This document shows, one piece after another, positions 10,440 through 36,476 of a stretch of 36,476 nucleotides of DNA. Position 1 is the stretch's first letter. Every line of letters begins with the position of its first letter. Source of the stretch: Chloroflexota bacterium (GTDB lineage: Bacteria; Chloroflexota; Dehalococcoidia; Dehalococcoidales; JACPPQ01); NCBI GenBank assembly GCA_016190925.1, contig JACPPQ010000133.1, forward strand, positions 1 to 36,476. The letters are read 5' to 3'. The notes under the pieces are model-generated. The model saw nothing but the letters and a program-made list of their open reading frames with translations. It had not been told where the DNA came from and ran no database searches. A program made the position numbers and the translations under genes.

Positions 10440-10838
10440 GTGACTGTCTCAGATCCAATTGCGGATATGCTAACACGGATACGCAATGCCATTATGGTGA
10501 GGCATGATTCTGTATTGATTCCGGCTTCGAAATCGAAGATGTCCATCGCCAAAATCCTCAAGACAGAGGGATTCATTTCAGATTATGAGGTGCTCAACGA
10601 GAAGCCGGGGCGAGTGCTAAAGATTCGTTTGAAATACGATGAGCAAAATCAGCCAATCATCTCGGGGCTGGAGCGTATCAGCAAACCGGGGCTAAGGATA
10701 TATTCCCGGCATAACGAGGTGCCGCGTGTTTACGGCGGCCTGGGAATAGCCATACTCTCCACCTCCAAAGGAGTGATGACCGGCCATCAGGCCTGGCGTC
10801 AGAGCATCGGCGGCGAAATCCTGTGCTACGTATGGTGA
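10440..10838 (+). CDS. rpsH: 30S ribosomal protein S8
   Basis: S8 is a primary 16S rRNA binder and, in E. coli, the repressor of the spc operon. The product is 132 residues, starting at GTG 10440 ([18 protein letters not shown]) after a G-rich ribosome binding site. The C-terminal [20 protein letters not shown] is diagnostic. The following 82-base gap to rplF, the largest within the spc segment, carries a hairpin (10853-10901). Confidence 0.97.
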
Positions 10839-10852
10839 ATCCCGTAAAAAGA

Positions 10853-10901
10853 AGCTACCAGCCGTCAGCCTCCAGACATGGGGGTGGAGGGACTGATAGC
10901 T
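10853..10901 (+). promoter_or_regulatory. Hairpin between rpsH and rplF
   Basis: Three helices stack: AGCTA (10853-10857) with TAGCT (10897-10901), TCAG (10865-10868) with CTGA (10893-10896), and CCTCCA (10869-10874) with TGGAGG (10885-10890). They are separated by a 7-base internal bulge on one side and a 2-base bulge on the other. This irregular stem resembles a protein-binding RNA more than a terminator, and no T-run follows. A link to S8 feedback is only a guess. Confidence 0.45.
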
Positions 10902-10920
10902 AATACTCAGGAGATTATGG

Positions 10921-11466
10921 ATGTCTAGAATAGGGCGGATGCCAATAACAGTACCAACAGGCGTGAAGGTGGACATCGGTCAGGGGGGGGTGACAGTTAA
11001 AGGCCCCAAGGGAGAGCTACATCGTAGTTTCGACCCCAGCATGTCCATTGCCTTAAAAGAGAATACTTTGATAGTGTCACGTCCCAGCGATGCGAGGGAG
11101 CACCGCTGCCTGCACGGGTTGACGCGCAGCCTGCTGGCAAACATGGTGCAGGGCGTGTCCCAGGGTTTCGAGAAGAACCTGGAAATCGTGGGAGTAGGCT
11201 ACCGGGCGGAAAAAGCCGGGGAAAAGCTGGTGCTCCGTGTCGGCCTTTCCCATACGCTGGAAGTTGCGCCGCCAAAAGGCGTGTCTTTTGCTGTGGAAGG
11301 CGTTAACAAGATTAAAGTTATCGGGATTGACAAGGAGGCGGTGGGAGAAACAGCAGCAAACCTGCGTGAGATGCGACCCCCTGATACGTACAAAGGTAAA
11401 GGTATCAGGTATCTCGGTGAGAAAGTCCGAATCAAACCAGGGAAGGCTATAGGTAAGAAGAAATAA
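10921..11466 (+). CDS. rplF: 50S ribosomal protein L6
   Basis: L6 lies near the GTPase-associated centre. The 181-residue protein begins [15 protein letters not shown] and ends with [23 protein letters not shown], the C-terminal family signature. AGGAG (10909-10913) precedes the ATG. The last base of its stop codon is the first base of the rplR ATG (TAATG), indicating stop-start coupling. Confidence 0.98.
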
Positions 11467-11831
11467 TGGCAAAAGTTGAAACAAGAGAAGCACGCATCAG
11501 GAGACATGCCAGGGTCCGGCTCAATCTAAAGGGCACGACGGAAAGACCGCGTTTGTCCGTATTCCGCAGTCTGAATCATGTTTACGCCCAGGTTATTGAT
11601 GACATCCAGGGGCAAACTCTTGCGTCAGCATCGACTCTCGACCCGGAAATAAAGGGCGAGACGGCGGGTAAAACAAAGACTGACGAGGCCAAGCTCGTTG
11701 GGTCTCTGGTTGCCAAGCGGGCGCTGAGCAAGGGCATAAGCCAGGTAGTATTCGACCGCGGCGGGTTCCAGTATCACGGCAGGGTCCAAGCCGTGGCGGA
11801 TGCAGCCCGCGAGGCAGGATTGAAGTTCTAA
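11466..11831 (+). CDS. rplR: 50S ribosomal protein L18
   Basis: L18 binds 5S rRNA and carries it into the large subunit. The 121-residue product has [23 protein letters not shown] and ends [27 protein letters not shown], both typical. Its ATG overlaps the rplF stop by one base. Normal length and position. Confidence 0.98.
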
Positions 11832-11849
11832 GGAGGTTGGCTTAGGCAA

Positions 11850-12383
11850 GTGAAGGCGCCGATTAGTAAGATAGACCCAACAGAACTAACACTGAACGAT
11901 AAGCTGGTATACATTAACCGTGTCGCTAAGGTGGTTAAGGGCGGCAAGCGCCTCAGCTTCAGCGCCCTGGTAGTGACCGGTGATGGTGCCGGACATGTGG
12001 GCGTTGGCCTGGGCAAGTCCAACGAGGTGCCCGGAGCTATCAGTAAGGCCGGAGCGGATGCGAAAAAGAACCTTGTCAAGGTGCCCATGGTTAATGCTAC
12101 CATTCCCCATGAGATTACCGTTAAATACCGGGCTGCCGAAGTGTTTCTGAAGCCGGCGGCGCCTGGCACGGGAGTCATTGCCGGCAGTAGCGCCCGAGCT
12201 GTTCTTGAAGCGGCTGGCATAAGGGACATCCTGAGCAAGTCCAAGGGCAGCGAAAACCGGACTAACGTGGCTAGAGCCACGATTCTTGCCCTGAGCCAGC
12301 TAAGAATGCCCAAAGAAGTAATCGCCAAGCGCAAAGGTATTGTTAAAACTGAAAAGACCGAGGAGTCAGCGACCGGTGGCTAA
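11850..12383 (+). CDS. rpsE: 30S ribosomal protein S5
   Basis: S5 helps line the mRNA entry channel and affects decoding fidelity. The 177-residue protein starts at GTG 11850, with AGGAGG at 11831-11836. It contains [35 protein letters not shown] and the C-terminal [13 protein letters not shown] block. The extra residues at the end ([12 protein letters not shown]) are poorly conserved, and rpmD starts inside the last codons. Confidence 0.97.
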
Positions 12384-12558
12384 GTTACGTGTTATCCTTG
12401 TTAAGAGCGGTATTGGGTATGCTGAAGACCAGAAGAGGACACTGAAGGCTCTGGGACTACGGCGAATGAACCAGAGTGTAGTCCATGAGGATTCACCTTC
12501 ACTGCGAGGCATGGTCAGCAAAGTGAGACATCTGGTAAAAGTGGAGGAAAGCTCGTGA
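12376..12558 (+). CDS. rpmD: 50S ribosomal protein L30
   Basis: L30 is a small large-subunit protein near 5S rRNA. I place the start at GTG 12376, giving [15 protein letters not shown] and 60 residues, the normal size. GAGGAG at 12359-12364 serves it. An upstream in-frame ATG at 12340 would add 12 unrelated residues inside rpsE. It overlaps rpsE by 8 bases and rplO by 4. Confidence 0.95.
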
Positions 12559-13022
12559 GAGAGGACACAATTTCCCCGCCTCCCGGCTCTAACAAGAACC
12601 GGAAGCGGGTCGGACGAGGAAACGGCAGCGGACATGGCAACTATTCAGGGTACGGTTGTAAAGGCGAGAAGCAACGCGCCGGACGAGGCCATATGCGCCC
12701 GGGTTTTGAGGGCGGGCAGTTGCCATTAATAAAGCGCCTTCCGCACACGCATGGCTTCACTAATAAATTCAGACAGGAGTATAACGTTATTAATCTGGGC
12801 CAGCTGAACGTCTTCGAATCCGGCGCCGAGGTAACACTGGAAGCCCTGGCGAAAGCCGGGCTTGTAAAGTCGCTGCGCCTGCCGGTCAAAATACTGGCTG
12901 ATGGTGAACTGAAGCATCCTCTTACCATACTAGCAAACAAATTCTCTTCTGCTGCTAAAGCCAAGATTGAGGCAGCCGGTGGCAAAGTGGAGGAGGTTGA
13001 GTATGCGGCAAAGGCAGTCTAG
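12555..13022 (+). CDS. rplO: 50S ribosomal protein L15
   Basis: L15 is a late-assembly protein of the large subunit. The 155-residue product starts at GTG 12555, overlapping the rpmD stop in a GTGA junction. It shows the glycine-rich N-terminal region [34 protein letters not shown] and the C-terminal globular domain. Its last 20 bases overlap secY. Confidence 0.97.
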
Positions 13023-14319
13023 GCCGCGACTACTTCAGGCGATGTTCGATGCCTTCAGTCTGCCTGACCTGAGGCAACGTATCCTTATCACCATCGCTAT
13101 CCTGGCGATTTTCCGTTTCATAGCGCATGTGCCGCTTCCCGGAGTGGACCTCGATGCTTTGCAGCAACTTTTCGAGCGGAACGCCATGCTGGGCATGCTC
13201 GATATGTTCAGCGGCGGCGCCATGAGGCGACTCAGCGTTGCGGCTATGGGGGTTTATCCCTATATCACCGCCTCTATCATCATGCAACTAATGGTGCCGG
13301 TCATACCCAGGTTGCAGGCGCTTGCCCTTGAGGGAGAGGCCGGACGGGACAAGATGAACCGTATTACTCACTGGGCAACGGTGCCCCTCGGCGGCTTGCA
13401 GGCCTACGGCCAACTGGTATTTTTCCAGAATCAGGGCATTTTCACCGCCCCTACCCCTCTGCTAATGGCAACCATGGTGCTGTCAATGATAGCGGGTACC
13501 ATGTTCACCATCTGGCTGGGTGAGCGTATTTCCGAGTATGGCATCGGGAACGGCATATCGATAATAATCTTCGGCGGCATTGTGGCGGGTTTACCTGAGC
13601 TGATAGGGGAAGGGTTTCTTGCCAGGGCAAATCCCCTCGGTCTTTTCTTTTATATTTTCATTGCGGTGGCTACGGTGGTGTTGATTGTGGTCTTCACCGA
13701 AGCCCACCGGAGAATCCCGGTGCAATATTCCCGCAGCGTTATCCGCGGCAACCGCATGTACAAGCAACAGGGGGCCACCCACATTCCGTTGCGGGTGAAT
13801 ACCGCAGGCATGATACCCCTTATCTTTTCCATGTCGCTGGTGCTCTTTCCCAGCATAGTCGCCAGCTACTTTGCAGCGCCTCAGGGCGCCGACCCGAATT
13901 TTGCCAACCAGATTATGACACTGTTTGACCCCAATGCGCGGATACCCCTGGGCCTGTTCTACTGGGGATTGTTTTTCCTCCTGACGGTTGCCTTTGCCTT
14001 CTTTTACACCATGGTAGTATTCCAGCAGCAGGACCTTCCTGGCGCTCTGCAAAAACAGGGAGGGTTCATCCCTGGAATCCGGCCGGGTAAAGCTACCAAA
14101 GACTTCCTCGATGGCGTTATCAGGCGCATCACCTGGGCGGGGGCTATTTTCCTGGGACTGGTGGGTATTATGCCTTTCATAGCCAGAGAAGCTACCGGCA
14201 TCCAGGTCATCCAGCTATCCAGCCTGGGTTTGATTATCGTGGTTGGCGTGGTGCTGGACACCATGAAGCAACTCGAGGCACAGCTGGTGATGCGCCGGTA
14301 CGAGGGCTTTATAAAGTAG
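13003..14319 (+). CDS. secY: Preprotein translocase subunit SecY
   Basis: SecY is the channel of the Sec translocon in the cytoplasmic membrane. The 438-residue product has about ten hydrophobic segments. It carries the family stretches VPLPGVD, the plug region SGGAMRRLSVAAMGVYPYITASIIMQL in the first third, and RGNRMYKQQGATHIPLRVNTAGMIP in the cytosolic loop. GGAGGAGG just upstream supports ATG 13003. An in-frame start at 12967 would add 12 residues with no hydrophobic or family character. It sits between rplO and adk, as in most bacteria. Confidence 0.97.
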   Translation: MRQRQSRPRLLQAMFDAFSLPDLRQRILITIAILAIFRFIAHVPLPGVDLDALQQLFERNAMLGMLDMFSGGAMRRLSVAAMGVYPYITASIIMQLMVPVIPRLQALALEGEAGRDKMNRITHWATVPLGGLQAYGQLVFFQNQGIFTAPTPLLMATMVLSMIAGTMFTIWLGERISEYGIGNGISIIIFGGIVAGLPELIGEGFLARANPLGLFFYIFIAVATVVLIVVFTEAHRRIPVQYSRSVIRGNRMYKQQGATHIPLRVNTAGMIPLIFSMSLVLFPSIVASYFAAPQGADPNFANQIMTLFDPNARIPLGLFYWGLFFLLTVAFAFFYTMVVFQQQDLPGALQKQGGFIPGIRPGKATKDFLDGVIRRITWAGAIFLGLVGIMPFIAREATGIQVIQLSSLGLIIVVGVVLDTMKQLEAQLVMRRYEGFIK

Positions 14320-14326
14320 GAGAGAG

Positions 14327-14983
14327 GTGTATATTATCTTCCTGGGTGCTCCCGGAGCAGGAAAAGGCACGCAAGCCGCAAACGTGGCAAAAAAGAGGGG
14401 ACTGACCCATATTGCTACCGGCGACCTTTTCCGGCAGGCACAGGAGCAGAAGACCGAGCTGGGGCTTAAAGCCAGGTCATACATGGAAAAGGGACAGCTT
14501 GTCCCTGATGAAATTACAATAAAGATGGTTGTGGAAAGGCTATCGGCGACGGATTGCCGCTCCGGAGCGATTTTCGACGGCTTTCCGCGGAACCTGGAAC
14601 AGGCAAAGGCGCTGGACAAGGCGCTGGCTGCCCAGGGCAAGGCGGTCGACAAGGTAATATATATCAAAGTTTCTGAAGAGGAGCTGGTGAAGAGGCTCAG
14701 CGGGCGCTGGATTTGCCGCAATTGCCAGACTCCCTATCACGAGGTGAGTTCACCTCCCAGGGTCAAGGGAAAGTGTGACAAGTGCGGCGGCGAGCTGTAC
14801 CAGCGCTCTGATGATACAATCGATACAGTCAAGCAGCGCTTGAAGGTGTATTTCAGCCAGACAGTCCCTCTCATCGACTACTATAGCCGGGCGGGGAAAT
14901 TGATAGAAGTAGATGGTGAGGGAGCCGTGGATAAGATTAGTGGGAGGATAGTTTCAGCTATCGGTGGCGAGAAGGGCCGGTAA
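14327..14983 (+). CDS. adk: Adenylate kinase, zinc-LID form
   Basis: Adk interconverts ATP + AMP and 2 ADP in the cytosol. The 218-residue protein starts at GTG 14327 after AGGAGAGAG. It has the P-loop GAPGAGKGT (7-15), the AMP-binding DGFPRN (84-89) and a LID domain with four cysteines, C130/C133 and C150/C153, so it is the zinc-binding long form. It lies seven bases after secY, the usual place. Confidence 0.97.
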   Translation: MYIIFLGAPGAGKGTQAANVAKKRGLTHIATGDLFRQAQEQKTELGLKARSYMEKGQLVPDEITIKMVVERLSATDCRSGAIFDGFPRNLEQAKALDKALAAQGKAVDKVIYIKVSEEELVKRLSGRWICRNCQTPYHEVSSPPRVKGKCDKCGGELYQRSDDTIDTVKQRLKVYFSQTVPLIDYYSRAGKLIEVDGEGAVDKISGRIVSAIGGEKGR

Positions 14984-14990
14984 CCAGCAG

Positions 14991-15755
14991 ATGGGCATAG
15001 TGATTAAATCTGAACGGGAGCTCGAAGCTATGCGGCAGGCTGGAAGGGTAGTGGCGACCGTTCTTGAGATACTGGAAAAACACGTAAAACCGGGCGTGAA
15101 GACAAAAGAGCTGGATGAAATTGCAGCCCGGGAGCTTGAAAAGCTAGGGGGAAAGTCTTCGTTCAAGGGATACCGTGGATATCCCGCTAGTTTGTGTGTA
15201 TCAGTTAATGACCAGATAGTACATGGGATTCCGGGGGAGCGGGTTTTGAAGGAGGGTGATATAGTATCACTCGATTTTGGAGCAATTGTGAACGGGTTTC
15301 AGGGTGATTCCGCGGTAACAGTAGGCGTGGGCAAAATCAGCCCGGAGGCAAAGCGCCTGATAGAGACTGCGGAGGGTGCCCTGTACGCCGGTATTGCCGC
15401 CGCCCGCGCCAAAAATAGGCTGGGGGATATCTCTGCCGCCATCCAGCAATATGCCGAGTCAAGGAGATTTTCAGTTGTGCGTGAGTATACCGGGCATGGC
15501 ATCGGCAGGGAGATGCATGAAGACCCCCTGATTCCAAACGTTGGCGAACCCGGCACCGGGCCGGCGCTGCGGAAGGGCATGACGCTGGCTCTTGAACCAA
15601 TGGTGAACGCCGGTGGCTGGCGCACCAGGGTTGGCAATGATAAGTGGACAGTGTATACTCTCGATGGGAGCAACTCGGCGCACTTCGAACATACTATTGC
15701 CGTCACCGGCGGTGAAGCAGAGGTGCTCACCAACAGAGCGCAGGGCCATGGCTAA
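14991..15755 (+). CDS. map: Methionine aminopeptidase, type I
   Basis: This enzyme removes the initiator methionine from nascent proteins. All five metal ligands are visible when counted from ATG 14991: D95, D106, H169, E202 and E233, within [36 protein letters not shown] and HFEHT. Length is 254 residues. The ATG gives [18 protein letters not shown], close to the family start. A GTG at 14964 inside adk would add nine residues. It has no N-terminal zinc finger. Order adk-map-infA is standard. Confidence 0.96.
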
Positions 15756-15966
15756 GAAAGAGGTTATCGAGGTTGAAGGGACGGTAACGGAATCTTTGCC
15801 CAATGCCATGTTTCGGGTGGAACTGGCAAACGGGCATCCGGTGCTGGCGCACATTTCCGGCAAGATGCGGATACACTATATCAAGATATTGCCCGGTGAC
15901 AAGGTGCTGGTACAACTTTCGCCTTATGACCTCAGTCGTGGTAGAATAACCTATAGACTCAAATAA
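15748..15966 (+). CDS. infA: Translation initiation factor IF-1
   Basis: IF-1 blocks the A site during initiation. The start is ATG 15748, overlapping map by 8 bases, giving 72 residues beginning [22 protein letters not shown]. The OB-fold motifs [19 protein letters not shown] and [13 protein letters not shown] are complete. A longer in-frame extension upstream to 15613 lies within map and is not part of the gene. Confidence 0.97.
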
Positions 15967-15981
15967 GAAGGGTTTACTATA

Positions 15982-16095
15982 ATGAAAGTCAGAGCTTCGG
16001 TCAAAACAAGGTGCGAAAAGTGCAAGATAGTCAAGCGCAAGGGCGTAGTCAGGGTCATTTGTTCTAACCCGAAGCACAAGCAGAGACAGGGTTAG
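15982..16095 (+). CDS. rpmJ: 50S ribosomal protein L36, zinc form
   Basis: This 37-residue gene lies between infA and rpsM. The product reads [20 protein letters not shown] and onward, ending in KHKQRQG. The zinc ligands C11, C14, C27 and H32 are all present, so this is the C+ form of L36. GAAGGG (15967-15972) provides the binding site. Size, motif and position all match rpmJ. Confidence 0.96.
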
Positions 16096-16121
16096 GTGTT
16101 CTACAAACAGGGAGGAGTGCA

Positions 16122-16508
16122 ATGGCGCGTATAGCCGGGGTAGACATACCAAGAAATAAGCAGGTGTGGGTCTCACTGCAATATATTTATGGTATCGGTC
16201 CCACTTTGGCCAAGAAGGTGCTGGCTGAGACCAGCATCGAACCCGAAATCAAGGTGAGCGACCTTACGGATGCGCAGGTCAACACCCTGAGGGAAGCCGT
16301 AGCCAAATATGAGGTCGAAGGTGAGCTGAGAAAAGAAATCAATCTCAATATCAAGCGACTCATCGAGATTGGCAGCCGGCGCGGCCAGAGGCATCGCCGC
16401 AGCCTTCCGGTCAGAGGGCAGCGTTCCAGGACAAACGCTCGCACCAAGCGCGGACAACGTAAGACAGTGGCCGGAAGAGGCCAGAAGCGCGGCACGGCCA
16501 AGAAGTAA
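16122..16508 (+). CDS. rpsM: 30S ribosomal protein S13
   Basis: S13 sits in the head and bridges to the large subunit. The 128-residue product begins [26 protein letters not shown]. It contains [26 protein letters not shown], where the common RHRRGLPVRGQRT carries a Ser. GGGAGGAG precedes the ATG. It opens the alpha-operon segment (rpsM-rpsK-rpsD-rpoA-rplQ). Confidence 0.98.
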
Positions 16509-16537
16509 AGTCCCCTAACAGGATTTGAAGGAGTAGC

Positions 16538-16918
16538 ATGGCACAGAAAAAGCGAAGGAAAGAACGGAAGTCTATCCCATCGGGGAGAGCCTATATACAG
16601 TCTACTTTTAATAACACTGTAGTGACTCTCACCGACCCTCAGGGAAATGTTATTTCCTGGGGAAGCTCAGGGACAGCCGGATTCAAGGGCTCCCGCAAGG
16701 GGACCCCCTATGCCGCCCAATTGGCCGCCCGCGATGCTGCGCGGAAGGCAATGGAGCAGGGACTGCGGCAGATAGAGGTCTACGTAAAGGGACCCGGCAG
16801 CGGACGCGAAGCCGCCATCCGTTCCCTTCAAAGCTCGGGGCTTTATATTACCGGTATCAAGGACGTGACACCCATTCCTCATAATGGCTGCCGTCCATCC
16901 AAGAGAAGAAGGGTGTAA
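16538..16918 (+). CDS. rpsK: 30S ribosomal protein S11
   Basis: S11 lines the platform near the E site and the Shine-Dalgarno helix. The 126-residue protein carries [41 protein letters not shown] and [23 protein letters not shown], which are highly conserved. GAAGGAG sits before the ATG. Normal length. Confidence 0.98.
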
Positions 16919-16928
16919 GGATAGAGAA

Positions 16929-17555
16929 ATGGCAACATACATTGGACCATCTTGCAGATTATGTCGCCGTTCTGGCGATAAATTAATGCTTAAGGGTGGC
17001 AGGTGCTATTCTCCCAAGTGCGGAGTGGATAAGCGTCCCAAGCCACCGGGACAGGCTTCAACCCAGCGGCGAAGGATTTCCGACCGCGGTACCCAGTTGC
17101 GGGAGAAACAGAAGGCGCGGTATAGCTACGGAATAATGGAAACGCAATTCAAACGGATGTTTCGCGAGGCTGAGCGGCAACCGGGCGTTTCGGGAGATAA
17201 CTTGATGGTGCTCCTCGAAAGGCGCCTGGATAACGTGGTCTACCGTCTGGGCTTTGCGGACTCGCGTTCCCAGGCCCGCCAGTTGGTGCAACACGGTCAC
17301 ATAAAGGTAAATGAACATGCGACCAACATTCCATCTTTTTTGGTGCGTGAAGGCGATACCATAACCTGGGTTGAGACCAGTGCCAAATCCGTTTACTATA
17401 AAGACCTGGCTCAGACCATAGCTTCCAAGGTCGTCCCTAACTGGTTGAGTCTGGACCGTCAAATACTCATCGGCAAGGTCGTATCCGTCCCTACTCCGGA
17501 AGATGCCGAGTCCAAGTTTGACGCAAAGTCCATAGTTGAATACTACTCGCGATAA
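16929..17555 (+). CDS. rpsD: 30S ribosomal protein S4, zinc-finger form
   Basis: S4 is a primary assembly protein and a regulator of alpha operons in some bacteria. ATG 16929 gives a 208-residue protein starting MATYIGPSCRLCRRSG. A 15-codon in-frame extension upstream lies inside rpsK and is rejected. The N-terminal zinc site is C9, C12, C26 and C31. The S4 RNA-binding fold includes LERRLDNVVYRLGFADSRSQARQLVQHGHI. Complete and in standard order. Confidence 0.97.
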   Translation: MATYIGPSCRLCRRSGDKLMLKGGRCYSPKCGVDKRPKPPGQASTQRRRISDRGTQLREKQKARYSYGIMETQFKRMFREAERQPGVSGDNLMVLLERRLDNVVYRLGFADSRSQARQLVQHGHIKVNEHATNIPSFLVREGDTITWVETSAKSVYYKDLAQTIASKVVPNWLSLDRQILIGKVVSVPTPEDAESKFDAKSIVEYYSR

Positions 17556-27920: not shown

Positions 27921-30900
27921 TTACCGTTTTATTTCCAGGAGTTCTGACACAAGTTCATCTATTTTCTGGGCTATGCCATCCTCACGGAGTGTGGCGCGGA
28001 TTTTTTGCCTGGCCTTGACAAAGTGCATTCCCTCATCTAGCGGAACGGCGGCGGCAACCCGTTCTGCACGAGTGGATGCATTTGCCAGTGCTTTGTGTAG
28101 CTTATCAGAATGGTCAAACGGCGGAATTGGCAGGGAAAGCACAACTTTGTCAAAGTGGCGTGCTCCCCACTGTCCGCGCGCCTGAAGCCGTTCGGTCAGC
28201 TTACGAGCGGTTTCGCTGTTCAGGATGGACAGCAAGTAATGGCCTTCTCCTTTGCTACCCACTTTCATCCAGTAAAGTCCATGCTCGATAATAGCGGTCT
28301 CGTCGGAAAGCAGAGCAGCCGCTGGCAGTGTGCCCGATGCGCTGTAGACTACCCTTAGTGGTGCAACTGGGAACTGGGCTGAAAGCTGGCCGTAATAGTC
28401 CAACTGCTCTATAAGGGTTCTTCTGCCGCTGCTATATTGGGACCAGATACGCGCGGCTTCTGCTGACCATCTTGCTAGATGCACATAGCCTTGCAACAGG
28501 GCTTCGGTACTGCTCAGCAATTTGTTTTGCTCGTTATCCCAGGGGATTATCGATAGAATTGGTGACAGGACTCTGAATGGCGCGATAGACTCTCCTAAAT
28601 ATAGCGGACGCAAAAAACTGGCTTCAATGTTGTGTCTGAGTGAAGGTAAATTTTTCCAGGGTGGCTTTTCGAGATTCGAACGGCGGCTCACAACGAGGGG
28701 TGCTGCTGGGTTTTTACCTAACTTTCCAACTTCGATTTCTTGCACTGTGAAAAATATTCGTGGAATGATTATGGCACCTGACCTGAAACGGTCAGCGTAC
28801 CCTTCTGTAACTCTACTGGTGCGTTCAGTAGGCCAGGATTGGATATGCCATGAAAGATATTTGCTGGCTTCTGTTGCCGATGCGTCCCTTCGTGGAAGTT
28901 CACCTTGAGCTACGTGCACTCTCTCCGGTAACCGAGGACCTCCCCCATCTCCGGATACGGCAAACAACACGCAGGAGGGTACAGGAAAGAGAGGTTGCAC
29001 CTTATCTGAGAAAACCCAGGCATCTGTAAAGTGTACAGTGGCAAAAACCAACCTGGAACTGCCTTTTTGTGGAGAACCATATAATCCTGTCCTGAAACGG
29101 GCAAACTGACGGCGTGTCATCGCGGCATAGGGCATGATGAAAGCAATGGTGCCACCATCCCTAAGATAAAGCTCAACAGAACGCACGAAGAAATAGGCAG
29201 ATAAGTCCTGCTGTTGCGCTACCTGTCCATGCCAGATACCGAACGACTGGCACTCCATGCGGAAACGCGACTGCAAGTCAGCATCCATGAAGCGGTATGA
29301 CAGCCAGGGAGGATTGCCTATCACTACATCCGCCTTCTGGCTGTTCTGTGATAACCAGATGGGACGCACCAGGTTACGAGCAACAAAACCCCAGATATGG
29401 TCACGCTTATTCCGGTGCAATTCATGAAGAGTGTCATAGGTTTGCGCCAGGGTTTTAAGCGTTTCTTCGCACAAATGATAGTTCCGTTCCAGCCAGTCAG
29501 TTAAGCTATCAGAGGAGGCGCCCTGCTGGCTCAACTCAAGCATGCGTTCAATAACGGCATCGAACAGCACCGGGCCATGGGTAACCTCAAATGGAAACTC
29601 TAACAGCTTATTGGTTTCAGGCACCTCAATCAAAACATCCCGCTCGGCAAGGAAACCACGCGTATTCCATTGCAATGAATCGCCCATATAGACAGGAATG
29701 TTTAAATTTAATGGTCGTTGTTTCAAGCGGTCTTGCCCGACCGCCAGCAGGAAGGTAACACGGGCAATTTGCACCGATACCGGATGAACATCAACACCGA
29801 AAATTTGCCTGCATGCCCGCTCGATAGCGTCCGGTACAGGGATTCCAGATTCATCGGCAGTTTTTAACAATAGACGCACAGCGTGAAAAATAAAGGTGCC
29901 GGAACCGCAAGCCGGGTCCAGGACACGTTGCTCGAGGGGGTTATTGATAGCTTCAACACACATCCGCTCAGCTAACCAATCCGGAGTGTAATATTCTCCT
30001 AGAAAATGGCGCTGGTCCGGATCAATTAAAGACTCGTAAAGACCCTTGAGAACATCGGTCTGCACATCTTCAAGTCGAAAACGGCCAGCCTGTAAAGCAA
30101 TACGGCGAACAAGGTCGACTCCTTTGCCGGACTCAAGCATCCAATCAAAAAAATCCGATTCAACTACACCACCTATGCCAACTTCGGTAAAACGGCGGCC
30201 AGACAATAGTTCACCCGGCTCTGCGGCACTCACGCCAAGAACCCTGGCAGCCATTGTCTTGGCAATGACGGTAAGGTAAGTGTGCTGCAAGAACAAAGAA
30301 TCCTCATCAAGAGTAGCCCCATAAACACGGCGAATAAGTTGTGCCCAGAGGTCATGTTTTAACTGGATTTCAGGATACTTGCAGACTTCATTCCAGATTG
30401 CGCCAAGCTCGTGCCTGGCCACGTTCCAGGCGAGACTGGAGCGCCCTAGCTCACGACGGACTATTTCTGATGTAGGCTCTAAGTCGGCGTTAACAGCCAC
30501 TACTGAACTGAGCCACAATAAAAGTTCTCGAGGGTTGTCCGGGGGTATATTGAAAACCTCAAACTGGCAAAGTTTTCCACCGCGCAGTTCGTAAGGGATG
30601 AAAGTGGCCCAGTCTGTAACCACTCCGATAAAGTGAGTACCCGTTTCCTTTTCGCGCTGGTTGAGGTAATCAGGCAGTTTATTTTCGGCGTCTCGCTGCT
30701 CGCGACGAAGGTCGGACTTAAACTCAAACAAAGTTCTTCCCAGCAAGGCGTCTATGCGCCCGTGGACCTCCGGAACCTGACGCTCAAAATCAAGCTCTGT
30801 GCTCCTTGCACCCAGCCCATTTACAAGGAGTTCATAAACCAGAGAGCGTACTTTTTCGTGGTGGGGTCTGGAAGCTAGTTCTGACGCAATTTCTTTCAAT

Positions 30901-30986
30901 CTTTCCGGGGATATTGTCACTTTTGTTTTCCTGTCGGTCTGTTTGGAATATAATACCACAAAGACCTGCGCAAAAATATTCCCCAT
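27921..30986 (-). CDS. Type IIG-like restriction-modification enzyme (adenine N6-methyltransferase with nuclease-like N-terminus)
   Basis: The protein has about 1021 residues. From ATG 30986, the N-terminus holds a PD-(D/E)XK-like pattern: GRIDALLG with D79, then LFEFKSDL with E88 and K90. The methyltransferase core follows: YYTP (332-335), the SAM motif DPACGSG (357-363), GVDVHP and the catalytic NPPW (558-561), the order of gamma-class N6-adenine enzymes such as Eco57I. The last third should contain the target-recognition part. Cutting and modification in one chain is the Type IIG layout, so it may protect against phage DNA alone. GGAAGG supports ATG 30986. An ATG at 31025 would add 13 residues without a binding site; a GTG at 30920 is also possible. 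No partner restriction, specificity or BREX gene is adjacent. Confidence 0.88.
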   Translation of the reverse strand: MGNIFAQVFVVLYSKQTDRKTKVTISPERLKEIASELASRPHHEKVRSLVYELLVNGLGARSTELDFERQVPEVHGRIDALLGRTLFEFKSDLRREQRDAENKLPDYLNQREKETGTHFIGVVTDWATFIPYELRGGKLCQFEVFNIPPDNPRELLLWLSSVVAVNADLEPTSEIVRRELGRSSLAWNVARHELGAIWNEVCKYPEIQLKHDLWAQLIRRVYGATLDEDSLFLQHTYLTVIAKTMAARVLGVSAAEPGELLSGRRFTEVGIGGVVESDFFDWMLESGKGVDLVRRIALQAGRFRLEDVQTDVLKGLYESLIDPDQRHFLGEYYTPDWLAERMCVEAINNPLEQRVLDPACGSGTFIFHAVRLLLKTADESGIPVPDAIERACRQIFGVDVHPVSVQIARVTFLLAVGQDRLKQRPLNLNIPVYMGDSLQWNTRGFLAERDVLIEVPETNKLLEFPFEVTHGPVLFDAVIERMLELSQQGASSDSLTDWLERNYHLCEETLKTLAQTYDTLHELHRNKRDHIWGFVARNLVRPIWLSQNSQKADVVIGNPPWLSYRFMDADLQSRFRMECQSFGIWHGQVAQQQDLSAYFFVRSVELYLRDGGTIAFIMPYAAMTRRQFARFRTGLYGSPQKGSSRLVFATVHFTDAWVFSDKVQPLFPVPSCVLFAVSGDGGGPRLPERVHVAQGELPRRDASATEASKYLSWHIQSWPTERTSRVTEGYADRFRSGAIIIPRIFFTVQEIEVGKLGKNPAAPLVVSRRSNLEKPPWKNLPSLRHNIEASFLRPLYLGESIAPFRVLSPILSIIPWDNEQNKLLSSTEALLQGYVHLARWSAEAARIWSQYSSGRRTLIEQLDYYGQLSAQFPVAPLRVVYSASGTLPAAALLSDETAIIEHGLYWMKVGSKGEGHYLLSILNSETARKLTERLQARGQWGARHFDKVVLSLPIPPFDHSDKLHKALANASTRAERVAAAVPLDEGMHFVKARQKIRATLREDGIAQKIDELVSELLEIKR

Positions 30987-31166
30987 CTTTACCTTCCGCT
31001 GGCAAAACCAGGTAGCGAGAACCATGTTTCACGATAAAAGTTGCTGGCTAAAACAGCACTAATTGCTAATATATTCCGGCGCAATTCTTTTACGTATTTG
31101 TTTTCCGTTCTCACGAAAATAGAGGTTTAGTTCGACCTAGGGGGATTTGAAATCCCTCTCAATCTC

Positions 31167-31481: not shown

Positions 31482-32585
31482 ATGGCGGAGATTAAAATAA
31501 CCGATACGCCAGCCACGGAGAGAGCTGTCAGCGCCACCGAAATCGTGGAAAAACGCTGGTTCTGCGCTGCGGTGTCTCCTTCAGGCACCATCTTCAAAGG
31601 GGCCGCCGAATCGCCGGCCGCCTTCCTCGATACTCTGCGTAACGCTACGATTTCCTGGATTGACTACGTTTGCCAGGACTTCGATAAGGAAGCCCCCGGT
31701 GTTGCCGCACAGCTCGGCTTCAGCAGCCAGCTCACCGGTTCTTTTGCCGATTTGCATACGACCTATCAGGACTTCGATACCGAGCTGGGCATCAAACTCC
31801 CCAGCGTCCAGGTCAGGGGGCTTGAAGTCGAAGCATATCCGCTTCTGCTGCTCTTGAGCCAGAATTTCATCCTTACCATCCACCCCCGCAGCGTCGATAG
31901 AAGGTTCACCAAACTGCGGAGGTACTCCGAGACCGTTTTGAAGAAAATACCGGTTGAGGCAAGCGCAGGGGACAGACTGACGCTTCTCCTGATACGCCTG
32001 GTGGACGAGAATAACGACCGGAACTTCGAGCATCTGCGGGAAATAGATGAACGTGGCGATGAGCTCAATGAGACAATGACCGACCTCAACGTTCCCCGCG
32101 AGAAGCTGGCGACCGAGATTTACCGCATGAAGCATGCGCTTATCGTTTATCTGAACGCGCTCTGGGATACCGTGCATGTGCTTCATACCCTGCGATACGG
32201 GGATGCCGAGCTTATTAGCGACGACCCGCATCTGCTGAACAAGATTACCATCCTGGCTGATGACGTCAACCGGCAGATAGGGCTGGCAGAGCATATGTCG
32301 GAAGTCCTGGCTTCAGGGCTGGAGGTCTTGCAGAGCATCTATAACAATCAGCTCCAGAACCTCAATAACAGGCTGGCTTTGCTCATGACCTATTTGACCA
32401 TCATAGGCACAGCCGTGCTCGTCCCCAATACGCTGGCCACCATTCTGGGCAATGCGGTGTTCGACATCGGGCCGCACGATATCGGCTGGTATCTGGCATT
32501 GATGGTCGGTTCCACGGTGGCGGCCACGGCATCGGTCTACTGGTGGGTACGCAGGCGAGGCTGGCTGCCCAGGAAAATGGACTGA
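31482..32585 (+). CDS. CorA-superfamily membrane protein lacking the GMN motif
   Basis: CorA proteins are pentameric channels for Mg2+ or other divalent metals. This 367-residue protein has the CorA layout: a soluble N-terminal domain, a long helical region (about 140-295), and two C-terminal membrane helices (about 298-323 and 334-355) followed by a basic end. The first helix reads LTIIGTAVLVPNTLATILGN, clearly CorA-like. Where YGMN should close the pore loop it has LGNA (322-325), and no acidic MPEL-like loop follows. Transport of Mg2+ is therefore doubtful; it may carry another ion or be a sensor. It has its own promoter, and a 59-residue membrane peptide begins four bases after its stop. 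Confidence 0.8.
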   Translation: MAEIKITDTPATERAVSATEIVEKRWFCAAVSPSGTIFKGAAESPAAFLDTLRNATISWIDYVCQDFDKEAPGVAAQLGFSSQLTGSFADLHTTYQDFDTELGIKLPSVQVRGLEVEAYPLLLLLSQNFILTIHPRSVDRRFTKLRRYSETVLKKIPVEASAGDRLTLLLIRLVDENNDRNFEHLREIDERGDELNETMTDLNVPREKLATEIYRMKHALIVYLNALWDTVHVLHTLRYGDAELISDDPHLLNKITILADDVNRQIGLAEHMSEVLASGLEVLQSIYNNQLQNLNNRLALLMTYLTIIGTAVLVPNTLATILGNAVFDIGPHDIGWYLALMVGSTVAATASVYWWVRRRGWLPRKMD

Positions 32586-32589
32586 AGCA

Positions 32590-32769
32590 ATGGAAATGCG
32601 AGATTTGATTTTAGTGGCTGCCGGCGCTATTCTGTGCGCGGCGGTGTTCCCGCTGACCCTCTTCTGGGATAGAATCACCGAATGGGTATCCGGCGTGAGG
32701 GAACGCGTTACCGGCGAAACACCGCGTTATGGCTTAAGCAAGGCTCAGGACAGGCCAAAATTGAAATAG
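32590..32769 (+). CDS. Small membrane protein behind the CorA-like gene
   Basis: This 59-residue frame starts four bases after the CorA-like stop. Residues 5-26 (LILVAAGAILCAAVFPLTLFW) are one membrane segment, followed by an amphipathic charged stretch WVSGVRERVTG. The last ten residues (SKAQDRPKLK) are encoded by the CTCAGGACAGGCC repeat module, so the original C-terminus may have been replaced by a repeat insertion. AGGAAAA lies 14-15 bases upstream; translation may depend on coupling. I know no family for it. Tight spacing suggests a partner or regulator of the CorA-like protein, which is inference. Confidence 0.5.
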   Translation: MEMRDLILVAAGAILCAAVFPLTLFWDRITEWVSGVRERVTGETPRYGLSKAQDRPKLK

Positions 32770-32887
32770 TACCTACTTTCATAATTGACTGGTCTTTTGC
32801 GCGCCGTTCGTGGTGAGCCCTTCGACAAACTCAGGACAGGCCTGTCGAACCACCGGCGCGCCCTTCGACAAGCTCAGAGCCTGCCCC
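32740..32887. repeat. Cluster of three TTCGACAAGCTCAGGACAGGC-type repeats
   Basis: Copies lie at 32740-32757 (CAAGGCTCAGGACAGGCC), 32820-32841 and 32864-32887. The middle copy is flanked by TTCGACA and TGTCGAA and so folds back on itself. The first copy runs into the end of the small membrane protein gene. The stretch between that gene and the kinase promoter holds nothing else. Confidence 0.75.
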
Positions 32888-32955: not shown

Positions 32956-35508
32956 GTGGAAGGGCAGATGGGGAAACTTAAGGGGATTTTTTCGGGTCAT
33001 AGTGTTGATTTTAATCCGCATGCTCCCGATATTGGTGGTTTTACTGCTTTGGGTACCAGAGAAAAGAACCCTCCTTCACTAAAGCTACGGAGGGCAAGCA
33101 GGTCTGGGGTGAAAAACAGTCGCAGAATTACGGAGTCATTCAGCCTGACCCTGCAAAGAAGGATTGGGCTGCTGGTCCTTGCCGGGCTGGTGGTGGGGCT
33201 GGGACTGTTCAGCCTGCTGGGAATACAATCGCTGAATGAGAGCACGCAGAAAGTCCTCGAGGAGCGCCTGGTACTGGCGCGCCACATGGCAACTGAACTG
33301 GATGAAACCCTGACAGACATTTTAGGGCACCTGCAAGACGTCAATTGGAACAACGGGGCTTCCATCGAGGACAACTTTGCCCTCTCCGCAGAACCCCTGG
33401 TCAACACATACACCAGAGCTAGAATTTTTGTCAGAAGCATAATTCTTGTCGATGCATCGGGGAGAGTCATCCGGGTTGAGCCGAAAAATTCGGCGATTTT
33501 GGGAACAAATCTCTCTATATACAGCAAAATCCGCGAAGCCATCGAGACGGGTATTCCTACCATCTCCGACCTGGTCTCCGAACCTCTGATAGAGACGCCG
33601 GTGGTGTTCGCCACTGCTCCCATCAAGGACTGGGACGGGAAAATCGCCGGGGCTGTTATCAGCTCAATCGATATCGCCCAATCAACCAACAATTCTTTCA
33701 GCCCGACTATTACGATAGAAAAGACGGGATATGTCGAGATTGTCGATGGCAGCGGCATCGTCCTTTCCAGGACCAGCCCCGGATTACCGCCGAGGGGGTT
33801 TGAAAGAAGCGACCATCCCGGCCGCTTTGCCGACCTGATAAGTAAACAGGAAGCCACCGTGGGGACATGCCACCGATGTCATGAAGTTAATGAGGGCATA
33901 GAGAGACGCCAGGACGTTCTCGCCTTTGCTCCCCTTTCGACCGCTTCCTGGGGTGTCGCCATTCGTCAATCGGAGGAGGAGGCCCTGGCAGGAACGCGCC
34001 AGTTGGAGAGGAGGTTGATTCTCCTGGGCGCTATAGTCCTTGTAACCAGTCTGATAATGGCGTGGTCTATGATGCAGAGCGTTGTGCGGCCGCTAAAAAT
34101 GCTCACCGCAGCCGCCAAGAAAGTGGCCGCGGGGGATTTCAAAACTGCCATTCCGGTCAAGCGCAAGGATGAAATCGGCCAGCTGAGCGCCGCTTTCCAT
34201 GCGATGACCACCGAATTAGACAAGAACAGGGAGGAATTGGTCTCCCGCAACGAGGAGCTATCAGCCCTCAACTCCATAGCCACCACGGTCAGCCAGTCTC
34301 TTAACCTCAAGGAGGTGGTCGAGCATGCCCTGCGGAAGGTTCTCGAAGTAACCAGGACCACCGCCGGCTGCGTCTTTCTGAGGGACTCCACTGGCAACTC
34401 GCTTGAGATGGTTAGCAGTGTCGGCCCGTCGGATATCTTCAAATGCCGGCAATCCGGCATGGCAATAGCAAACTGCGCCTGCCACACAGTGGTGCGCCAC
34501 GGGCAAACGCTGATGGTAAACCACGTTTCCCAATGCCCCGCGCTTAATGAGGACGCGGTTATCGAGGAGGACATCGGCTGTTTTGTCAGCATACCTCTCA
34601 AAACCAAGAACCGGAATCTGGGCATTATGAATATCGCCTGCTCCGGAGAGCGCGCCTTCACCGAGGACGATTTCAAGATTCTGGAGTCAATAGGCTACCA
34701 TGTAGGCCTGGCGATTGAAAACTCCGTCCTCTTTGAAGATGCCAAGCTGAAAGAAAAGCTGAGGGGAGAAGTGCTGAACAGTGTAATCAATGCCCAGGAA
34801 GAGGAACGCAAGAGGATTGCCAGAGAGCTGCACGACGAGTACGGGCAGACCCTCGCCGGGCTGAGAATGAATATAGACTCAATCGAAAATATGGTGCCGC
34901 CCCAGCAGACTGACGTTAATGAAAAACTGGAAAATGCTAAATCCCTCATTGCTCGCGCGCTGGAAGAAATGCGCAGATTGACCGCCGACCTGCGTCCCTC
35001 AGTCCTCGATGACCTGGGACTGGTAGCCGCAATCCGCGCATACGCCCACAATCGCCTGGACCCTCTGGGGATACAGGTGAAATTCGAGAACTATGGTCTG
35101 AACCGCAGGCGTCTGGCTCCCGCGGTCGAAACCGCCCTGTTCAGAATAGTCCAGGAGGCCATTCATAATACCACCAAGTATGCTGAGGCACATTGTGTTA
35201 GAATACATCTGGAGGTCAGGGATGATAAAATTATCGCTCTTGTCGAAGATGACGGCAAGGGCTTTGACGTGGCAACTGCTCTAAAGTCCGGCAGCAAGAC
35301 AAGGCCGCTGGGTCTGCTCGGCATTCAGGAGAGGGCCACACTCCTGGGCGGCACGGTCAACATCGAATCTGCCATCGGGCGGGGGACCAGAATCACCGTA
35401 GAGATTCCTATCACCGAGTCCATCGAGGATGCCGGGCTGGTGCTGACCAGCCAGAACATCGCGGGCGGGCAAATAGGGCGAGACAATACGCGAAAGAAGG
35501 TGAGCTAA
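32956..35508 (+). CDS. Membrane sensor histidine kinase with CxxCH heme motif, HAMP and cysteine-rich GAF (NarX/NreB-like)
   Basis: This 850-residue kinase has, in order: membrane helix 1 (about 69-90); a Cache-like sensor region (about 95-345); helix 2 (about 354-374); HAMP (about 375-430); GAF (about 450-590); HisKA_3 with ARELHDE (H626); and an ATPase domain with N738, DDGKGFD and GLLGIQERA. The sensor region ends with CHRCH (C305-H309), a c-type heme attachment motif facing outward. The GAF has seven cysteines, including C497, C507, C509 and C527, which could hold an Fe-S centre. The start is uncertain: GTG 32956 or ATG 32968 with GGAAGGG. A GTG at 33109 would leave out about 50 unconserved residues encoded partly by a repeat hairpin (33069-33094). 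The response regulator follows with no gap. Confidence 0.92.
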   Translation: MEGQMGKLKGIFSGHSVDFNPHAPDIGGFTALGTREKNPPSLKLRRASRSGVKNSRRITESFSLTLQRRIGLLVLAGLVVGLGLFSLLGIQSLNESTQKVLEERLVLARHMATELDETLTDILGHLQDVNWNNGASIEDNFALSAEPLVNTYTRARIFVRSIILVDASGRVIRVEPKNSAILGTNLSIYSKIREAIETGIPTISDLVSEPLIETPVVFATAPIKDWDGKIAGAVISSIDIAQSTNNSFSPTITIEKTGYVEIVDGSGIVLSRTSPGLPPRGFERSDHPGRFADLISKQEATVGTCHRCHEVNEGIERRQDVLAFAPLSTASWGVAIRQSEEEALAGTRQLERRLILLGAIVLVTSLIMAWSMMQSVVRPLKMLTAAAKKVAAGDFKTAIPVKRKDEIGQLSAAFHAMTTELDKNREELVSRNEELSALNSIATTVSQSLNLKEVVEHALRKVLEVTRTTAGCVFLRDSTGNSLEMVSSVGPSDIFKCRQSGMAIANCACHTVVRHGQTLMVNHVSQCPALNEDAVIEEDIGCFVSIPLKTKNRNLGIMNIACSGERAFTEDDFKILESIGYHVGLAIENSVLFEDAKLKEKLRGEVLNSVINAQEEERKRIARELHDEYGQTLAGLRMNIDSIENMVPPQQTDVNEKLENAKSLIARALEEMRRLTADLRPSVLDDLGLVAAIRAYAHNRLDPLGIQVKFENYGLNRRRLAPAVETALFRIVQEAIHNTTKYAEAHCVRIHLEVRDDKIIALVEDDGKGFDVATALKSGSKTRPLGLLGIQERATLLGGTVNIESAIGRGTRITVEIPITESIEDAGLVLTSQNIAGGQIGRDNTRKKVS
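33069..33103. repeat. Hairpin repeat overlapping the kinase N-terminal codons
   Basis: CCCTCC (33069-33074) and GGAGGG (33089-33094) flank TTCACTAAAG, followed by CAAGCAGG. The same layout occurs at 28-61 with CCCTTC/GAAGGG arms. Here it is read in frame as part of the predicted kinase N-terminus, ahead of the first membrane helix. Confidence 0.7.
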
Positions 35509-36168
35509 ATGGAAAAAATGCGCGTCCTGATAGCCGACGACCATGTGATAGTCAGGGAGGGTCTGCGTTCTCTTCTTCAGGCCCAGCCTGACATCGAGGT
35601 AGTGGGGGAAGCTGCGGACGGCGAGGAGGCGGTGAGGAAAACAGAGGAGCTTCAACCTGACGTGGTACTAATGGATATCACCATGCCGGGAATGAGCGGG
35701 CTTGAAGCTACCCGGCAGATTAGAAAAGACAACCCGAATGTCAAAATACTGGTCCTCACCATGCATGAGAGCGACGAATATTTCTTCAAGATGCTGGATG
35801 CCGGGGTTTCCGGCTACTTCGTCAAGGGAGGCTCTTCCAACGAGCTGCTGGCAGCTTTGAAGACCATCTCCCAGGGAGATGTGTACTTATATCCCACCAT
35901 GGCCAAAAAGCTCCTCAGCGACTACCTGCAGCGGGTCAGGGCGGGGGCCGATAAGGAAACCTACGATGGCCTCACCGGCCGGGAAAGGCAGATTCTCAAG
36001 CTCATTGCCGAGGGACGCACCACCCAGGACATTGCCGATTCTCTGGTCCTCAGCGGGGCCACAGTTCAAACTCACCGCGCCCACATCATGTCGAAGCTGG
36101 GTCTGCGAAGCCGCACCGAACTGATAAAGTATGCCATCAAACACGGGTACGTGACGCTGGAGACGTAG
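35509..36168 (+). CDS. NarL/FixJ-type response regulator
   Basis: The 219-residue protein is the partner of the adjacent HisKA_3 kinase, whose stop codon touches its ATG. The receiver domain has the acidic pair D10-D11, the phosphoacceptor D56 in VVLMDITMP, T84 and K106. The LuxR-type helix-turn-helix is at about residues 153-215 (LTGRERQILKLIAEGRTTQDIA). It should bind DNA as a dimer when phosphorylated. Its targets are unknown. No palindromic operator is obvious in front of neighbouring genes. Confidence 0.95.
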   Translation: MEKMRVLIADDHVIVREGLRSLLQAQPDIEVVGEAADGEEAVRKTEELQPDVVLMDITMPGMSGLEATRQIRKDNPNVKILVLTMHESDEYFFKMLDAGVSGYFVKGGSSNELLAALKTISQGDVYLYPTMAKKLLSDYLQRVRAGADKETYDGLTGRERQILKLIAEGRTTQDIADSLVLSGATVQTHRAHIMSKLGLRSRTELIKYAIKHGYVTLET

Positions 36169-36425: not shown

Positions 36426-36464
36426 CCCCGTATCAAGTACCCTTCGGCTTCGCTCAGGGCAGGC
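36426..36464. repeat. 39-bp dispersed repeat, copy 2
   Basis: Identical over 39 bases to 31288-31326. It lies close to the window edge and may extend into further repeat sequence. Confidence 0.85.
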
Positions 36465-36476
36465 TCTGTGCTACCG

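Follow-up and report, generated by a model that had tools for sequence, protein, structure and literature searches.

The window analysed here, the whole 36,476-nucleotide stretch of contig, comes from a deep-subsurface Chloroflexota genome and contains a gene for a membrane-bound sensor histidine kinase, which heads a respiratory electron-transfer operon (Table 1). The kinase carries HisKA_3 and HATPase_c domains and adjoins a regulator with receiver and GerE domains, and the two genes thus form a HisKA_3/NarL-type two-component system. Ordinary chromosomal genes occupy positions 1-31025 (EF-G, ribosomal protein S3, SecY, RNA polymerase alpha, phosphomannomutase), together with genes for SAM synthetase, SAH hydrolase and an Eco57I-like methylase/restriction protein (27921-31025), and a CorA-like divalent cation transporter is encoded just 5' of the kinase (31482-32585). 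The two-component genes have short dispersed repeats (CCCTTCGACAAGCTCAGGACAGGCC and similar) on either side, at 32744-32877 and 36435-36470, one of them falling inside a 57-nt contig overlap; a plasmid search gave no match.

Table 1. Features of the kinase locus, with positions in the window and residue numbers of the kinase open reading frame.
Feature	Position	Strand	Residues, evidence or remarks
Sensor histidine kinase ORF	32956..35508	+	850 aa: TM1 - dCache - TM2 - HAMP - GAF - HisKA_3 - HATPase_c
TM1	33163..33225	+	Residues 70-90; hydropathy, K/R counts
Extracytoplasmic dCache_1	33235..33963	+	Residues 94-336; Pfam E=1.6e-12; AF2; PDB fold matches to dCache sensors
His287 of SDHPGRF motif	33814..33816	+	Covaries with His306
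CHRCH (C305, H306, C308, H309)	33868..33882	+	Residues 305-309; predicted c-type heme attachment site
TM2	34009..34077	+	Residues about 352-374
HAMP	34072..34218	+	Residues 373-421; Pfam E=3e-15
Cytosolic GAF	34300..34719	+	Residues 449-588; Pfam GAF_2 E=1.5e-19; fold search
Cys quartet C497-x9-C507-x-C509-x17-C527	34444..34536	+	Predicted Fe-S (AirS-like [2Fe-2S]) ligands
HisKA_3 dimerisation/phosphoacceptor domain	34804..35007	+	Residues 617-684
HATPase_c	35125..35415	+	Residues 724-820
NarL/LuxR-type response regulator	35509..36168	+	Receiver + GerE; cognate partner, directly after kinase
57-nt end overlap with contig C127	36420..36476	+	C127 belongs to the same genome

Since residues 1-57 of the predicted kinase align with no relative, the true start is probably the GTG at 33109 or the ATG at 32968, downstream of the start of the open reading frame. 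Lysine and arginine account for 5 of the 20 residues before TM1 and 5 of the 26 after TM2 on the cytosolic side, and for 3/20 and 2/17 on the Cache side of the membrane. This positive-inside distribution places the Cache domain outside the cytoplasm, and the two membrane segments together with a HAMP domain after TM2 bear out the outer location of the CxxCH motif proposed in an earlier note on this DNA. The same note had located CHRCH in the Cache region, and C-x9-C-x-C-x17-C plus three more cysteines in the GAF domain, and its coordinates are exact; the three further cysteines are C472, C542 and C562. Its statement that the Cache region ends in CHRCH has to be corrected, since the dCache_1 match extends as far as residue 336, with TM2 starting only near residue 352. 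The AF2 model of the Cache domain (mean pLDDT 88) consists of two alpha/beta modules, and profile searches of the PDB gave matches limited to HAMP and to generic dCache and GAF domains.

The CxxCH motif in a double-Cache family

To assess conservation of the outer motif, 84,980 genomes were scanned with the Cache alignment and the peptide patterns IRQSE[ED]EA and T[GD]YxE[IVM]VD[GQ][NS], both of which exclude CxxCH itself. The motif was present in all 28 loci recovered by this motif-free scan, every one from a Chloroflexota/Dehalococcoidia MAG. With class- and phylum-wide searches added, the set comprises 73 distinct homologous Cache domains, which a gap in score divides into an upper group of 55, all with CxxCH, and a lower group of 18, all without it. 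Each of the 55 relatives that bear the motif keeps C305, C308 and H309. Missing conservation in close homologues, which the earlier note had named as grounds for giving up its proposal, was therefore not what we found (28/28 and 55/55). Pfam recognised dCache_1 in 29 of 29 family members, and the family occurs in 26 of the 393 genomes of the class sample. The genome of the window encodes three further CxxCH paralogues (C60, C73, C112) and one paralogue without CxxCH (L007).

Because the relatives without CxxCH have a loop of similar length at this position, CxxCH may have originated inside a loop that was already there, and not have come with an inserted piece. Another Cache relative (L163) has GCLGCTG at the corresponding place, possibly a decayed or intermediate motif.

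One Cache family with a covalent cofactor has been described, and was presented as the first of its kind: sCache_heme (DUF3365/Tll0287-like, PF11845), which includes GSU0582, GSU0935 and Tll0287 (PMC12889525). It consists of a single Cache with a 99% conserved CxxCH and is reported to be rare or absent in Chloroflexota; those of its members that are fused to signalling modules bind NO and undergo changes in heme redox state (PMC12889525). The window family resembles it in having an extracytoplasmic Cache with near-invariant CxxCH, two transmembrane helices, a HAMP domain and signalling outputs, but is a double Cache (dCache_1) with CHxCH, whereas sCache_heme has a single Cache and a generic CxxCH. 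PF11845 gave no match to the kinase at E<=0.1 and was not among the 25 Pfam families listed, out of 31 in total, for the 29 members at E<=1, the other six being single-member families; in the class it was detected in 2 of 197 genomes. An hhalign comparison of the family with two genuine PF11845 members, the only two sequences used for that side, returned a probability of 3.5 and aligned the CxxCH stretch alone. Two strands (251-263 and 269-276) follow CxxCH (242-246, model numbering) before TM2 in the AF2 Cache model, as against one strand-like segment in the PF11845 members L150 and L151. In sCache_heme the motif occupies an insertion that precedes the final strand of the sheet; in the window family it lies elsewhere in the fold, as judged from the sequence and a heme-free model. 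Membership in PF11845 was accordingly rejected on the lack of a Pfam match, the double Cache and the different CxxCH position. The absent PF11845 match, the motif-only profile alignment, the different strand count and the loop in CxxCH-less relatives together make it likely that CxxCH in the double Cache originated independently of sCache_heme.

A periplasmic c-heme and a cytoplasmic PAS domain are combined in one chain in DcrA of Desulfovibrio vulgaris (PMC8396549). DcrA is a chemoreceptor whose cytoplasmic PAS lacks heme, and for which the review gives no Fe-S site (PMC8396549), while the window protein is a kinase. The Geobacter c-heme sensors, for which signalling by a redox-linked change of heme coordination has been proposed (PMC8396549), are by analogy the nearest experimental precedent for the window kinase. 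Apart from the sCache_heme preprint, the open-access library searched yielded no paper on a dCache with CxxCH and none on a kinase combining a c-heme with an Fe-S GAF domain.

The cysteine quartet of the GAF domain

The quartet C497/C507/C509/C527 is invariant in 11 of 11 aligned orthologues, and C472 alone of the further GAF cysteines is invariant among them. Since such invariance holds for CxxCH in 55/55 relatives and for the quartet in 11/11 aligned proteins, neither motif is due to chance. An independent class-wide search with a GAF profile found 11 quartet loci, all of which also encode CxxCH. The co-occurrence that the earlier note had proposed to count thus runs in one direction: CxxCH is kept in every quartet protein found, but there are CxxCH proteins that have no quartet. 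In a tree of the Cache domains, 17 quartet proteins and two that have lost the entire GAF domain form one clade (SH-aLRT 99) nested among CxxCH proteins without the quartet, from which it follows that CxxCH came first and the quartet later; the quartet was probably gained once, to judge from this tree. One protein from outside the class (L152) has both motifs. The GAF domains of CxxCH-less dCache kinases or other GAF kinases (L086, L087, L089, L160) contain looser cysteine sets of the form C-x(n)-C-x-C-x(n)-C; the inner theme is therefore broader than the quartet clade, which suggests a wider family of Cys-GAF kinases.

Of the Fe-S kinases compared, AirS (YhcS) of Staphylococcus aureus (PMC4601167, PMC8774646) comes closest in spacing: according to a review, its Cys-x7-Cys-x-Cys-x17-Cys binds a [2Fe-2S] cluster (PMC4601167). 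Compared by published spacing, two of the three spacers are identical (x7-x-x17 against x9-x-x17), and both histidine kinases have the cysteines in their sensor part and point to regulation of a redox, O2 or NO type. The review gives the location in AirS only as the 'N-terminal region' (PMC4601167); in the window kinase the quartet sits in the GAF domain, as indicated by Pfam GAF_2 (449-588) and by GAF folds in the PDB search. Unlike AirS, the window kinase spans the membrane and has the added extracytoplasmic CxxCH Cache. In the AF2 model of the GAF domain C497 comes behind a strand and C507 and C509 stand where a helix begins, with C527 in the loop that follows; pLDDT is below 50 for model residues 74-81, between C497 and C507.

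The likeness to NarX and NreB put forward in the earlier note is a loose one. E. coli NarX and NarQ share the order HAMP - GAF-like - HisKA_3 - HATPase_c and a NarL-type regulator with the window kinase, and NarX has a four-cysteine cluster in its GAF-like region. That cluster, however, is spaced C302-x5-C-x4-C-x2-C316, much further from the window kinase than AirS, NarQ has none, and the sensor of both proteins is a nitrate-sensing helical bundle rather than a dCache. In NreB of Staphylococcus, a kinase controlling anaerobic respiration, four cysteines bind a [4Fe-4S] cluster (PMC4601167); this kinase is cytoplasmic with its cluster in a PAS domain, whereas the window kinase is a membrane protein with its quartet in a GAF domain. 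Membership in the NarX/NreB group was rejected on the sensor domain and the cysteine spacing. The GAF [3Fe-4S] site of CSK/Hik2 was also dismissed, as it has one Cys ligand only and no comparable motif (PMC6949291).

Operon context and cytochrome maturation genes

At loci of the quartet clade, the kinase gene is followed by that of the NarL-type regulator and usually by genes for a receiver-like protein and a cNMP-binding protein. In L042-L045, L047, L147 and L148, these are mostly followed by genes for an SPFH protein, an Fe-S protein and NrfD and then, if the gene exists and the contig is long enough to include it, by one for cytochrome c. The gene order has gaps in some loci (in L043, for instance, neither an SPFH nor a cNMP gene was read), and the Pfam assignments were made for L044. 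The contig of the window stops 308 nt past the regulator, and its final 57 nt have a single further copy in the genome, which forms the end of contig C127. In matching orientation, C127 carries receiver-like, cNMP-binding, SPFH, Fer4_11, NrfD and cytochrome c genes. On the strength of this unique overlap between the two sequences, the window operon continues on C127. The C73 paralogue, which has lost its GAF domain, adjoins SPFH, tetraheme cytochrome and Fe-S/NrfD-like genes.

Cytochrome c assembly genes are present in the window genome and in each of the 12 others that were checked. Across the class sample, PF01578 assembly genes were found in 25 of the 26 CxxCH genomes as against 239 of 367 others (Fisher p=3e-4), an association confounded by general cytochrome content; the sole CxxCH genome without ccm genes, G085, is incomplete. 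One CxxCH paralogue (L015) lies directly after CcmE, CcmF, ABC ATPase, CcmB and CcmC-like genes (CcmE, CcmF and CcmB by Pfam), which are preceded by multiheme cytochromes, and a paralogue in the window genome (L002) has the same arrangement. At L136:6737-15153 and in L134 at about 10688-17475, CxxCH paralogue kinases are encoded directly behind ccm genes and multiheme cytochromes. The ccm-adjoining kinases look as if they sensed heme or cytochrome status. Within the fetched flanks of the CxxCH loci L051-L067, a cytochrome with at least five CxxCH motifs or a ccm-like cluster was seen at 10 of 17, a count made by eye from translations without a random control.

Two predicted cofactors in one signalling chain

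From these motifs and gene neighbourhoods we infer a membrane histidine kinase with two cofactor-bearing sensors, a c-heme outside and an Fe-S GAF domain inside, that controls the adjoining operon; we hold this reading to be somewhat more probable than its negation. The membrane-proximal half of the dCache would bind a c-type heme covalently through C305/C308/H309, with the Ccm system of the cell loading it. The GAF domain would hold, on C497/C507/C509/C527, an iron-sulfur cluster that is labile to redox change or gases and most similar to the [2Fe-2S] cluster of AirS. The redox or ligand state of the heme (redox poise or NO) would move TM2 and HAMP, the GAF cluster would supply a cytosolic redox input, and both would jointly set HisKA_3 autophosphorylation. 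The adjoining NarL-type regulator would then control the downstream membrane Fe-S/NrfD/cytochrome c electron-transfer module. The suggestion of the earlier note that the kinase compares redox state across the membrane, with metal centres that it inferred, is plausible in this light and is backed by the operon context.

An objection comes from His306. It is conserved in 53 of 55 sensors (46/48 in another count), whereas CHxCH occurs in none of the 48 CxxCH motifs of eight multiheme or cytochrome c proteins from two of these genomes; because of partial homology between the two cytochrome sets, these are not 48 independent observations. CHxCH is therefore narrower than a mere signal for heme attachment, and could serve as a dithiol site or as a metal site with Cys and His ligands. 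Kept together with H287 in 53 CxxCH Cache domains, H306 is lost together with it in two (L063, L077), and neither is ever found alone. On this view the extracytoplasmic CHxCH would be either a metal site of the Cys2His2 type or a CxxC dithiol switch that is redox-active, His287 would serve as an additional ligand or base, and the kinase would sense a metal or thiol redox outside the cell. Yet L063 and L077 retain exactly C305, C308 and H309. Two cysteines and a histidine satisfy the requirements of a heme c site but not those of a zinc site with four ligands. H287 moreover occurs in 17 of the 18 relatives that lack CxxCH, and is thus ancestral and not specific to this site; for the same reason His287 was rejected as a proven sixth heme ligand. 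The operon linkage of the family to ccm genes and multiheme cytochromes also speaks against a non-heme site. Given the unusually conserved His306, we allow such a site a small probability, and consider heme c clearly the more probable occupant of CHxCH. The AF2 model is less confident at the motif itself (block means 61-74).

The heme could also be real and the GAF quartet a zinc site or a set of disulfides, structural or acting as a thiol switch. Zinc is often bound by four-cysteine sites, the loop is modelled with low confidence and the first spacer is 9 residues rather than the 7 of AirS, but the CxC followed by x17-C matches the last two spacers of AirS exactly, related kinases have the looser cysteine sets in the same GAF region and the function of the operon is electron transfer, and we judge this version rather improbable. 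That the protein is an ordinary ligand-binding dCache kinase with incidental cysteines would fit the nearest PDB folds of the Cache domain, all of which are ligand-binding dCache domains; invariance of C305/C308/H309 in 55/55 relatives and of the quartet within its clade, along with the cytochrome/ccm linkage, makes this very hard to believe.

Read across the family, the heme-and-cluster kinase would belong to a second, independently evolved c-heme Cache family ('dCache heme') that arose from a double-Cache loop in Chloroflexota, one clade of which then added a cytosolic AirS-like Fe-S GAF domain and came to control an Fe-S/NrfD/cytochrome c respiratory module; we give this wider scenario an even chance. 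If it is correct, there is a double-Cache heme family separate from the published single-Cache one and with a different attachment site, and the Cys-GAF clade places two redox cofactors on opposite sides of the membrane in one signalling chain. The integration of outside and inside redox state by bacteria within one kinase would thereby become testable, and for the electron-transfer operons of uncultured subsurface Dehalococcoidia the kinase would offer a candidate regulator. At L138:7266-8366, a LuxR-type (GerE) regulator whose N-terminal part matches no Pfam family is encoded beside the GAF-less CxxCH paralogue.
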